Below, piece after piece: positions 48,722 through 52,595 of a stretch of DNA of 64,000 nucleotides. This DNA is from Ignavibacteria bacterium. Its GTDB lineage: Bacteria > Bacteroidota > Ignavibacteria > Ignavibacteriales > SURF-24. Below the pieces are notes generated by a model. The model was not told the DNA's origin and did not search any database. It saw nothing but the letters and a program-made list of their open reading frames with translations. The stretch lies in contig JAAXKN010000008.1 in assembly GCA_025612375.1 (NCBI GenBank), forward strand, positions 1 through 64,000, given 5' to 3'. The position numbers and the translations under genes were made by a program. Positions within the stretch are counted from its first letter, which is position 1. Each line of letters opens with the position of its first letter.

Positions 48722-48754
48722 GTAACAGTTCAGGCGTATGTCCTGAACTGTTAC
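48722..48754 (+). other. Perfect 13-bp hairpin before the subtilase gene
   Basis: GTAACAGTTCAGG (48722-48734) and CCTGAACTGTTAC (48742-48754) are perfectly complementary with a 7-nt loop. No T-run follows. It fills most of the short gap between the M1 peptidase stop and the subtilase start. Confidence 0.75.
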
Positions 48755-48778: not shown

Positions 48779-51607
48779 ATGTTAAGAAAAGCTGCTTACC
48801 TGTTCTTTTTTATATTTTTAAGTAATCTGGCTTTTAGCGCCACCTCCCAAAAGGGAAGGGTATTGGGCCAGGGAAACACTCATTACCTCCGGGGTGAAGT
48901 TGTAGTAAAGCTGAAGTCCGGAGCGAGGCTGAATAAGTCTCTGGCTTATGCTTCCTTAAGTAAAAAGCTGAGTGCCTACAGTATTAAAAATATATCAAGT
49001 ACATTTCCCGATAAGACTGGCATTCTGGAAGATATAGTTACAGTTGAGTACGGCTCGGACGTTGATCCCCGGGATATGGCAGAGAAAGTCAAATCCACAG
49101 GTGAAGTCCTCTGGGCAGAACCCCACTTTGTATACAAAACCAGCACAGTGCCAAACGACCCCAGCTACAGCCAGCAGTGGAGCCTTGCGACCATACAGGC
49201 CGAGCTTGCATGGGGAATTACCAAAGGAAGCGATGCAATAATTATCGGCATCGTGGATACAGGAGTAGAATGGGGCCATCCCGATCTGACGGATAAAATC
49301 TGGATAAATACAAAGGAAACTCCGGATAACGGAGTTGATGACGACCATAACGGCTACGTTGATGACGTAAGGGGATGGGACTTCGGTGGCATGACAGGAA
49401 CGCCCGACAATAACCCGGACGAGGATCAGGCTGACCACGGGACGCACGTGGCCGGTATTGCCGCTGCCACAACGGGTAACGGAAAAGGAATAGCCTCCAT
49501 AGGGTATAACTGCAGGATTATGGCAGTTAAAACCTCAAGAAACGACGACCGTGATTCCCAGGGTGAAGTTTATGTCGATTACGGCTATGAGGGAATAATC
49601 TATGCCGTGGATAACGGCGCCAGGGTAATCAACTGCAGCTGGGGCGGTGACGGATATTCAAAGATGGGGCAGGACGTGGTGGATTACGCCCTTTCAAAGA
49701 ATGTGCTTATTGTCGCCTCTGCCGGCAATGAAAATTCAGACGCGGCTTCATATCCGGCTTCTTACGACGGCGTGCTATCAGTGGGCTCAACAGACCAGCT
49801 GAATGACACCAGATCATACTACTCAAACTTCGGCTCTACGGTGGATGTATTTGCCCCGGGAAGCAACATTTATTCTACATGGAAACAGGACGTATACAGA
49901 AACCTCTCCGGAACCTCAATGGCTTCACCACTTGTTGCAGGGCTTGCAGGACTGGTACTGTCGCGTTTTCCACAGTTTACGCCCCGCCAGGCAGCAGAAC
50001 AGATAAGGGTTAACTGCGACAACATAGACGCCGCCAATCCTTCGTATAAGTACCAGTTAGGCGGAGGAAGGATCAACGCCTTTAAGGCATTAAATAACGT
50101 AAACTCGAAATCCGTAAGGGGTTACGATTTTGTTTTCTCCGATGAGGAGGGGAATAACAATGGGGTTTTTGAACCCGGCGAAACAGTAACCCTTTCAGCA
50201 AATTTTGTAAATTACCTGGATCCGGTATCTTCACTGAGTATAACTTTAGAGAGTCTGGACGGCTATGCTTCGGTTACAGGAGCGTCATTCAGCCAGGGGC
50301 AGGCTCAGACACTTTCAAGCTTTAATAACAGCATGAGCAAGTTCCGCTTTACCATAAACAGCAATGTGCCGAATAATTATGAAATGAAGCTCCTCCTTAA
50401 ATATAATGACGGCACATATTCCGACTACCAGGTGATTGCAGTTAAGGTTAACCCTTCCTACATGACCCAGACATCGGGAAAAGCCGGTCTTACAATTACG
50501 AGCAAGGGGAATCTTGGCTTTAATGACTACCCGATGAATTTTGAAGGCGACGGCTTCCGCTACAACGGGGGATCGAACCTTCTTTTTGAAGGCGCCCTTA
50601 TGTACGGAATTTCCGCGGATAAGCTCACAGACGCCGCAAGAACGGGTGACGTGCAGGAACAGGATTTTAAGGTGCTGAAGAATTTTATGCTTGCTAAAAA
50701 TCAGTTAACGGGAGGCTATGAAGGGTTTACCATGTTTAATGACGAGGACGCCGGGAGCTACAGCCTGGGGGTTGAAACAACGCTTCGTTCTTATTCATAC
50801 GCACAGGCGCCCTATGATAAATTTGTGATCTTAAGATACCGCATGGCCAACAAAAGCGGAAACGACATAACCGGCTTCCGTGCGGGGTTATTCCTTGACT
50901 GGGACATTAATGCCGATACGGCTACGGCTGATAATGCATACTGGGAAAAGGATTACAACTTCGGCTATGCATATAGCCAGCTCAGTAATCCCGGAGTAAT
51001 TGCAGGATGCGCGCTTGTATCTTCAGGCGATTTCAACTATTACGCCATACGCAACGACGGCTCCGAAGGCGGGGTTGGTTTATATACCCCGAGCCAGAAC
51101 GAATTTACAAAACAGGAGAAGTGGACAACACTCTCGACACAGAAAATGAGCGCCGGAACAGGGGACATTTCCATGGTGGTATCCGGAGGCCCATATAGCA
51201 TAAAAGCAAACGACACGCTTGAAGTTGCCTTTGCAATTTTTGCAGGAGAGACGATGGCGGATTTGAGGAATACGGTCCAGAACGCCAGGAAGAAGTTTCA
51301 TGAGATAGTAAACACAAGTGATACAGGAGAGGTTGCGATTCCGGTTGAATACAGCCTGAGCCAGAACTATCCAAATCCCTTTAACCCCGGGACGCAGATC
51401 GACTATTCAATTCCTGAGGCATCGGATGTAACGCTTAAGGTATACAATATTTTGGGGCGTGAAGTGGCAACGCTAGTTAATATGCACCAGAATAGCGGCC
51501 GTTACACAGCTGAATTCAAGAGCGAAGGCCTTCCAAGCGGCATATACATCTACCGTCTCAAAGCCGGTAACTACACCTCCGCAAAGAAGATGACAATCTT
51601 GAAATAA
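48779..51607 (+). CDS. Subtilisin-like serine protease with T9SS sorting domain
   Basis: This 942-residue extracellular protease (S8 family) has a signal peptide (about 1-22), an inhibitor-like propeptide region (about 25-125), and the subtilase domain with the catalytic triad Asp160 (GIVDTGVEW), His220 (DHGTHVAG) and Ser380 (SGTSMASPLVAG). An Ig-like and beta-rich middle part (about 425-850) follows. The C-terminal type-A sorting domain (about 862-942) holds NYPNPFNP and ends in KKMTILK, so export is through the type IX system and the domain is removed outside. ATG at 48779 with GAAGG 8 nt upstream is chosen over GTG at 48764. Confidence 0.95.
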   Translation: MLRKAAYLFFFIFLSNLAFSATSQKGRVLGQGNTHYLRGEVVVKLKSGARLNKSLAYASLSKKLSAYSIKNISSTFPDKTGILEDIVTVEYGSDVDPRDMAEKVKSTGEVLWAEPHFVYKTSTVPNDPSYSQQWSLATIQAELAWGITKGSDAIIIGIVDTGVEWGHPDLTDKIWINTKETPDNGVDDDHNGYVDDVRGWDFGGMTGTPDNNPDEDQADHGTHVAGIAAATTGNGKGIASIGYNCRIMAVKTSRNDDRDSQGEVYVDYGYEGIIYAVDNGARVINCSWGGDGYSKMGQDVVDYALSKNVLIVASAGNENSDAASYPASYDGVLSVGSTDQLNDTRSYYSNFGSTVDVFAPGSNIYSTWKQDVYRNLSGTSMASPLVAGLAGLVLSRFPQFTPRQAAEQIRVNCDNIDAANPSYKYQLGGGRINAFKALNNVNSKSVRGYDFVFSDEEGNNNGVFEPGETVTLSANFVNYLDPVSSLSITLESLDGYASVTGASFSQGQAQTLSSFNNSMSKFRFTINSNVPNNYEMKLLLKYNDGTYSDYQVIAVKVNPSYMTQTSGKAGLTITSKGNLGFNDYPMNFEGDGFRYNGGSNLLFEGALMYGISADKLTDAARTGDVQEQDFKVLKNFMLAKNQLTGGYEGFTMFNDEDAGSYSLGVETTLRSYSYAQAPYDKFVILRYRMANKSGNDITGFRAGLFLDWDINADTATADNAYWEKDYNFGYAYSQLSNPGVIAGCALVSSGDFNYYAIRNDGSEGGVGLYTPSQNEFTKQEKWTTLSTQKMSAGTGDISMVVSGGPYSIKANDTLEVAFAIFAGETMADLRNTVQNARKKFHEIVNTSDTGEVAIPVEYSLSQNYPNPFNPGTQIDYSIPEASDVTLKVYNILGREVATLVNMHQNSGRYTAEFKSEGLPSGIYIYRLKAGNYTSAKKMTILK

Positions 51608-51632
51608 TTCGTTTACAAATGCTACAAATTGG

Positions 51633-51837
51633 TAACTGCTAACGCAGTTAGGAAATTTCTTTGATTCAAAGCAAAGTTTTTCCTATCCGCGTTAGCGGAT
51701 ACCTACAAATAGACAACCGCTGAAAGCGGTTAAAAGAATTATTTCAACACTGAATTGAAAATTGTCCTATCCGCGTTAGCGGATACCTATTTGTAGAAAA
51801 GCAGATCAAAAATAAATTCCGAACCACGCAGTGGTTC
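51633..51837. repeat. Five palindromes upstream of the RAYT gene
   Basis: Palindromes at 51633-51650 (TAACTGC/GCAGTTA, loop TAAC), 51684-51701 and 51768-51785 (TATCCGC/GCGGATA, loop GTTA), 51715-51731 (AACCGC/GCGGTT, loop TGAAA) and 51821-51837 (GAACCAC/GTGGTTC, loop GCA). The TATCCGC copies are followed by CCTACAAATAG or CCTATTTGTAG. They are the presumed target repeats of the adjacent transposase. Confidence 0.85.
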
Positions 51838-51960
51838 CATATGCCGGCTTTGCACGGAATAATAAACATTCTATATTTTCCCTTCCCGCTTGCATGTTGT
51901 GGTATTATTTATAATAATATCATTAACCTTCCCTTAAAAACAATTATGAGGTATGCTGGC

Positions 51961-52413
51961 ATGGCAAACACGTATTCCCAGGTCTACATCCATATTGTTC
52001 ATTCCACACTGGGCAGAGTACCTTTAAACCATCCGGACTTCAAGGATGAGCTCTGCAAGTACATTACAGGAATTGTATCTAAAAAACGTCAGAAGATGAT
52101 TGCAATTAACTGCGTAAGTGATCATATCCATTATTTCCTTGGTCTGAATACGGAATTGTCCATTGCTGAGATTGTCAGGGAAGTAAAGCGTTCTTCAACA
52201 TGTTTTATCAATGATAAGAGACTCTGCCTGGGTGAATTCAAATGGCAGGATGGATACGGTGCATTTTCATATTCACATTCACATATTGACAGGGTGGTCA
52301 GATACATTGCTCGCCAGGAAGAACACCACAGGATACGGACATTTCAGGAAGAATACATTGAATTTTTGAAATCATTCGGGGTGAAATATGATCTTAAATA
52401 TGTGTTTGGGTAG
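51961..52413 (+). CDS. IS200-like (REP-associated, RAYT-type) Y1 transposase
   Basis: This 150-residue protein is of the Y1_Tnp HUH nuclease family. The metal-binding HUH motif is His55-Ile-His57 (SDHIHYFL). The catalytic tyrosine is Tyr115 in YIARQEEHH, with Gln119 in the usual Y-x3-Q spacing. These enzymes nick single-stranded DNA at hairpins and copy or move REP sequences. It is a single gene with no TnpB. Its location among matching palindromes indicates a domesticated RAYT rather than a mobile IS200. Start ATG 51961 matches the family; longer upstream reading would cross the palindromes. Confidence 0.9.
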   Translation: MANTYSQVYIHIVHSTLGRVPLNHPDFKDELCKYITGIVSKKRQKMIAINCVSDHIHYFLGLNTELSIAEIVREVKRSSTCFINDKRLCLGEFKWQDGYGAFSYSHSHIDRVVRYIARQEEHHRIRTFQEEYIEFLKSFGVKYDLKYVFG

Positions 52414-52423
52414 GGAAAAATAT

Positions 52424-52493
52424 GGAACCACTACGTGGTTCTGAAAATCTTTTCTTTCATATTCCTACAAATAGGTATCCGCTAAAGCGGATA
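52424..52493. repeat. Two palindromes downstream of the RAYT gene
   Basis: GAACCAC-TAC-GTGGTTC at 52425-52441 has the same stem as the palindrome just upstream of the gene. TATCCGC-TAAA-GCGGATA at 52476-52493 has the same stem as 51684-51701 and is preceded by CTACAAATAGG in inverse orientation. The transposase gene is thus bracketed by pairs of inverted palindromes. Confidence 0.85.
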
Positions 52494-52595
52494 GCAATAG
52501 GTTATATTCAGAAAGCCGGAATGAAACTGGAGCAGGTACAATCTCATCCATACCAGAGATACTGTGAAATTGTTCATGGCATCAAGTTAATATAT

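Follow-up and report, generated by a model that had tools for sequence, protein, structure and literature searches.

A subclass 1.2 Y1 HUH transposase gene of an Ignavibacteria bacterium lies within mirrored hairpins carrying a 3′ tag

Results

The window analysed in this work, the whole 64,000-nt stretch at the start of contig JAAXKN010000008.1 of an Ignavibacteria bacterium, harbors a gene for a 150-residue Y1 HUH transposase (tnpA) surrounded by seven palindromes at 51633-52493, each with a perfect 7-bp stem (Table 1). The initial annotation had described these palindromes around an HUH transposase, and we recovered its inventory: the stems TAACTGC, TATCCGC (three times), AACCGC(T) and GAACCAC (twice), the form GC-GTTA-GC common to three hairpins (51684, 51768 and, inverted, 51633), CTACAAATAG or its complement adjoining all three TATCCGC copies, and the two GAACCAC hairpins bracketing the gene.

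Table 1. Features of the tnpA locus, with positions in the window
Feature	Position	Strand	Sequence and support
tnpA, Y1 HUH transposase, TnpA_Y1 subclass 1.2	51961-52413	+	150 aa; Pfam and motifs; reading frame open back to 51841, conserved start at 51961, stop ends at 52413
Unit 1, tagged hairpin	51620-51650 (hairpin 51633-51650, tag 51622-51628)	-	TAACTGC-GTTA-GCAGTTA-CCAA-TTTGTAG; covariance model R1 36.6 bits, R2 E=3e-8
Unit 2, hairpin	51684-51705 (hairpin 51684-51701)	+	TATCCGC-GTTA-GCGGATA-CCTA, own tag broken by the tag of unit 3; R1 14.4 bits (weak), R2 E=0.006
Unit 3, hairpin	51701-51732 (hairpin 51715-51731, tag TTTGTAG 51703-51709)	-	AACCGCT-TTC-AGCGGTT; R2 E=1.9e-4
Unit 4, tagged hairpin, towards gene	51768-51798 (hairpin 51768-51785, tag 51790-51796)	+	TATCCGC-GTTA-GCGGATA-CCTA-TTTGTAG; R1 38.1 bits, R2 E=2.4e-9
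Inner hairpin, mirror partner of 52425-52441	51821-51837	+	GAACCAC-GCA-GTGGTTC, degenerate tag; perfect 7-bp stem
Inner hairpin	52418-52441 (hairpin 52425-52441)	-	GAACCAC-GTA-GTGGTTC, then CATATTTTTC (degenerate tag); R2 E=0.17
Unit 7, tagged hairpin, towards gene, mirror partner of unit 4	52463-52493 (hairpin 52476-52493, tag 52465-52471)	-	TATCCGC-TTTA-GCGGATA-CCTA-TTTGTAG; R1 23.2 bits, R2 E=4.5e-8
Outer mirrored pair around gene	51750-51799 and 52462-52511		50 nt, 82% complementary
Inner mirrored pair around gene	51809-51842 and 52420-52453		34 nt, 85%

The tnpA product matched Pfam Y1_Tnp (E=1.8e-20) and carried the motifs DHIH at residues 54-57 (H55-I-H57), WQ at 95-96 (W95-Q96) and YIARQEEHH at 115-123 (Y115-x3-Q119-x2-HH), with Y115 and Q119 invariant in an alignment of 23 relatives. 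It stayed below the NCBIfam cut-offs for IS200 (47.7 vs 55 bits) and for the REP-associated transposase NF047646 (20.4 vs 80 bits). An AlphaFold (AF2) model of TnpA reached a pLDDT of 88, and its best PDB matches were the TnpA proteins of ISDra2 and IS608, followed by TnpAREP 4er8. The label RAYT that the initial annotation had given to the protein had to be abandoned: judged by its sequence, it is a TnpA_Y1 of subclass 1.2 with Y---Q--HH and not a strict (class-2) RAYT with the tyrosine motif Y---NP. With subclass 1.2 as described in the survey of Quentin et al. 2018 (PMC6006769) it shares DH[IV]H, WQ and Y---Q--HH, a length of about 148 (148-150) aa, a C-terminal part that is short and conserved, a low copy number and paralogues that have diverged. 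The genome contained eight Y1 gene copies, and the other seven were 46-62% identical to the window copy. Between the window tnpA and the copy of a genus-mate, dN was 0.088 and dS 0.70 (dN/dS about 0.12), so the protein is under purifying selection. In one copy (L008, genome G000, C91:305-748) the coding sequence was split over two reading frames and the flanking hairpins, with the stem GTCCTTC, were kept; this transposase copy is probably dead.

The hairpins followed a recurrent unit, made of a hairpin of 5-7 bp with a loop that is usually GNA or GNNA and, 3′ of it at a distance of exactly 4 nt, the tag TTTRTAG. The initial annotation had missed that CTACAAATAG belongs to this conserved tag at fixed spacing and that the loop reads GN(N)A on the tag strand; the loop of unit 3, TTC, did not fit this pattern. 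Around the gene the order was hairpin-tag, hairpin-tag, gene, tag-hairpin, tag-hairpin, with an additional inverted pair (51633 and 51684) and an overlapping hairpin (51715) upstream. Units 2 and 3 overlapped at 51701-51709, where the tag of unit 2 read CCTA-CAAATAG and not the expected CCTA-TTTGTAG; this junction looks like two units joined within the tag. Further upstream, a 13-bp perfect inverted repeat (GTAACAGTTCAGG) was present at 48722-48754, about 10 bases ahead of the GTG start of a subtilase-like gene of 947 aa that ends at 51607.

The same unit was found beside relatives of the gene. The sample comprised 133 distinct subclass-1.2 loci from outside the Cyanobacteria, a plasmid search having given two Bacteroidota records only. 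In the 200 bp to either side of the gene, hairpins with an arm of at least 7 and a loop of 3-4 reached 1.7-1.8 per kb, compared with about 0.2 per kb more than 1 kb away from it and about 0.04 per kb in dinucleotide shuffles. When hairpins were oriented by their GN(N)A loop alone, 72 of 161 had the tag T[TC][AG]TA[AG] 3′ of the hairpin and 5 of 161 had it at the mirror-image position; when they were oriented by the tag alone, the loops were chiefly GTA, GAA, GTTA and GGA. Starting from the tag, with at least 6 of 7 pairs demanded and spacings of 0-15 nt tried, a hairpin lay exactly 4 nt upstream of 91 of the 255 TTTRTAG tags within 500 nt of a gene, compared with 0-4 at any other spacing and a mean of 6.5 (maximum 12) when 3′ arms were dealt randomly. 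Such units were present near the gene at 58 of 133 loci vs 2 of 55 far windows, and in another count units with the exact spacing lay beside 62 of the 133 genes; these locus counts are safer than unit counts because copies in one locus are related. Among class-2 RAYT loci from the same taxonomic order, the tagged unit was seen at 0 of 27. The genes with units belonged to Ignavibacteriota, Bacteroidota, Verrucomicrobiota, Fidelibacterota, Poribacteria, Thermodesulfobacteriota and Acidobacteriota. About half of the 133 loci had no unit under these rules. Some genes of the own genome, such as L004 and L008, had flanking hairpins with other tags; TCTGTAG and TGTTA are among the other tags seen in this genome. 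For alignment of the units, 3-nt loops were padded with N. The profile upstream of the hairpins showed no conserved 5′ guide, and the hairpins had no match in Rfam.

In two paralogues of the own genome (L005 at 1223-1295 and 2030-2109; L006 at 1165-1330 and 2066-2136), GTAG ran straight into a long bulged hairpin, CCCAGGGT...ACCCTGGG, so that a single GTAG doubles as 3′ tag for one hairpin and as 5′ foot for a long REP of the canonical type. We rejected GTAG directly before a long hairpin as a general feature, as it was clear in just these two paralogues.

The initial annotation had claimed that the stems differ with pairing kept, and this was borne out, the tag-first count given above being the unbiased test. 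As an illustration, since they were chosen for pairing, 23 units of the genus had 97.5% of cells paired vs 78% when shuffled, and 32 cells were changed on both arms vs 8 shuffled; five of the seven stem pairs changed on both sides. Compensating changes were also seen between homologous sequences: the genus-mate gene copy had GGACCAC/GTGGTCC where the window has GAACCAC/GTGGTTC at 51821-51837, and the homologous mini-elements at C14 and C15, described below, differed by CCGC/GCGG vs CCAC/GTGG, with both arms changed. The stem was nevertheless not free. Positions 4 and 7 were C-G in all 23 genus units, the upper stem was mostly YYCC/GGRR across phyla and free variation was found mainly in the lower pairs. 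The stem varied more than loop and spacing did, in line with the earlier suggestion that the enzyme would read shape and loop rather than stem sequence, but stem sequence was not ignored; the tag TTTRTAG, which that suggestion leaves out, was at least as constant as the loop. Across phyla (62 loci), stem position 2 took two main forms, a pair (56 units at 32 loci) or an A-G mismatch closing a 5-bp stem (56 units, 40%, at 31 loci), and all remaining mismatches together accounted for 29 units. Loci mostly kept to one form and five used both. The A-G foot was far commoner than random mismatches would give, and it may be an unpaired recognition feature like the bulge in E. coli REPs.

With a covariance model of the genus units, at least 57 units with E<0.05 were detected in the own 5.2-Mb genome, where they formed 23 clusters; scoring covered the 150 best first-look candidates, which makes the counts lower bounds. 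The E-values are rough. The palindromes are thus dispersed in the genome, and their absence elsewhere, which the initial annotation had named as an observation against its reading, does not hold. Among the matches listed, 3 of the 23 clusters held a Y1 gene and 20 did not. Three gene-less mirrored mini-elements of about 250 bp (L261, C14:63219-63505; L256, C15:13074-13358; L254, C38:15466-15750; all in genome G000) had the hairpin order + + - -, shared with the gene-bearing loci at C26 and C17, and the similarity among these copies stopped at the outer hairpins. A 197-bp array of four hairpins (C2:43905-44101) was absent from the matching site of a genus-mate; its right end read ...TTTGTAG vs GGGAAAATTC in the shared flank. 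Two further dispersed clusters were compared and gave one half-clean junction (C3:137902), with the left junction at the tag. One element ended at the tag, another at the hairpin foot. The nearest relative of the gene (84%) occupied another locus in the genus-mate. For the gene-bearing element there was no clean empty site: the window site in the genus-mate held other genes, and the reciprocal site in the own genome held other palindromes. The alternative sites of this element are therefore also explicable by loss or rearrangement.

Discussion

The tnpA locus shows the arrangement of a REPtron, in which inverted hairpins flank a gene and also occur scattered through the genome. As in the class-2 TnpAREP/RAYT REPtrons of E. 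coli and Stenotrophomonas, a Y1 HUH gene lies amid short inverted hairpins found genome-wide and associated with a GTAG-like tetranucleotide. The position of the latter, however, differs. Canonical REPs have GTAG 0-2 nt 5′ of the stem, whereas the tag found here follows the hairpin on the 3′ side in the loop strand, after 4 nt plus TTT, and may also be ATAG; the protein, too, differs in its tyrosine motif and falls short of NF047646. REPINs (Bertels and Rainey 2011, PMC3116915) likewise consist of inverted hairpin pairs, about 60-70 nt apart and dispersed without the gene, although in the present case partners may differ in stem, TAACTGC being paired with TATCCGC, and carry a 3′ tag. In the survey of the family, subclass 1.2 was listed with "REP: no" and generally without IS200-type ends (PMC6006769). 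The 3′-tagged units beside its members and their distribution beyond Cyanobacteria and Bacteroidetes are at variance with that description. The automatic search of the survey demanded GTAG or GTGG 0-2 nt 5′ of the hairpin foot (PMC6006769), and could not detect a 3′ tag at a distance of 4 nt. Our search, which covered open-access papers, found no later report of subclass 1.2 with hairpins.

We consider it probable, at about 75%, that the locus is a REPtron-like unit in which a subclass-1.2 Y1 HUH gene lies inside its mirrored cognate hairpins with a 3′ tag, the enzyme being the presumed agent of their mobility. A domesticated transposase would be the most serious alternative: the enzyme would move nothing, the hairpins would be used on behalf of the host, for example in repair or in the processing of replication forks, and dispersal would be a relic. 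The strong purifying selection on tnpA is compatible with this, as is the combination of low copy number and diverged paralogues, from which domestication was argued for TnpAREP (PMC8266576). The location of the gene at different sites in two congeneric species, the array present in one and absent from the other and the several gene-less elements of one architecture, on the other hand, speak for movement, and we regard domestication as unlikely, if worth keeping in mind.

A degenerate IS200/IS605 element has still less in its favor. The gene would then be an ordinary IS transposase and the hairpins subterminal structures of left and right ends, multiplied by nested insertions. Fold, catalytic residues and the Y---Q motif are indeed those of the IS200/IS605 family (IS608, ISDra2), hairpin-directed single-strand cutting is the likely shared chemistry, and the hairpins lie close to both ends of the gene. 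The ends of IS200/IS605 elements, however, lack mirror symmetry and depend on a 5′ guide, whereas the units described here occur as mirrored copies, carry a 3′ tag and are dispersed without the gene. Active IS copies are near-identical, in contrast to the eight diverged copies of this genome, the window gene has no tnpB beside it and its product missed the IS200 cut-off; we therefore judge this explanation improbable. That the hairpins act mainly at the RNA level, as bidirectional terminators or stabilisers of mRNA 3′ ends tolerated in intergenic space and around the gene, would agree with terminator-like scores (8 found vs 1.0 expected) and with a tag starting with TTT, but is very improbable, as a terminator can do without a loop specific to one strand and without a TTTRTAG at exactly 4 nt, the enrichment was confined to subclass-1.2 genes and not seen at those of class-2 RAYTs, the mirrored layout and the dispersed mini-elements of one architecture are left unaccounted for and Rfam gave no match.

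For the REPtron-like unit, a mechanism can be proposed from IS608, ISDra2 and TnpAREP (PMC8266576). The cognate site would be a hairpin in single-stranded DNA, its loop a compact GNA or GNNA and its upper stem rich in C-G, followed after 4 nt by TTTRTAG on the 3′ side. Once this strand is exposed, e.g. at replication, the enzyme, probably a dimer like its relatives, would bind the hairpin via shape, loop and upper stem and read the RTAG end of the tag. Tyr115 would then nick near the tag or the hairpin foot and the ends would be joined. Hairpins would be moved in this way, singly or in pairs, as would gene-less mini-elements and perhaps the element that bears the gene. The lower stem would drift with compensating changes because only pairing would be required there. 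GNA loops closed by C-G form unusually stable DNA hairpins, according to Yoshizawa et al. 1997 as cited in PMC6479982, and this points to the strand with the tag as the one that folds; calculations with ViennaRNA DNA parameters gave no stability difference between the two strands of the unit. A precedent for an enzyme that reads shape and loop is provided by TnpAREP of Stenotrophomonas (TnpAREP Sm), for which the stem sequence of REP_Sm counts for less than the first base of the loop and the integrity of the stem (PMC8266576).

Another observation concerned residue 106, nine positions before the catalytic tyrosine: it was Arg or Lys at 18 of 28 loci with a TTTG tag and at 0 of 39 with a TTTA tag, and His in most others. 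On the tree this amounted to just two independent pairs on well-supported branches, and a role as specificity residue for the tag base is possible, a lead and not a result. More broadly, subclass 1.2 could be a separate hairpin-mobilising class in at least seven phyla, with reversed polarity, i.e. with the GTAG-like motif as a 3′ cleavage or recognition tag and not a 5′ guide, in which the gene-bearing unit moves and recognition of the variable tag base falls to residue 106 (Arg/Lys or His). We hold this wider proposal tentatively, at slightly below even odds.

In conclusion, a class of single-strand transposases that had been described without a DNA partner appears to have one. The tagged hairpin is a concrete candidate substrate for subclass 1.2, and its natural series of stems offers material for determining what an HUH enzyme reads. 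Its consensus is sharp enough for searching any genome, and it would account for a set of small palindromic elements scattered through genomes of Bacteroidota and neighbouring phyla. All in all, the unit provides a point of comparison for the evolution of 5′-guide and 3′-tag systems.
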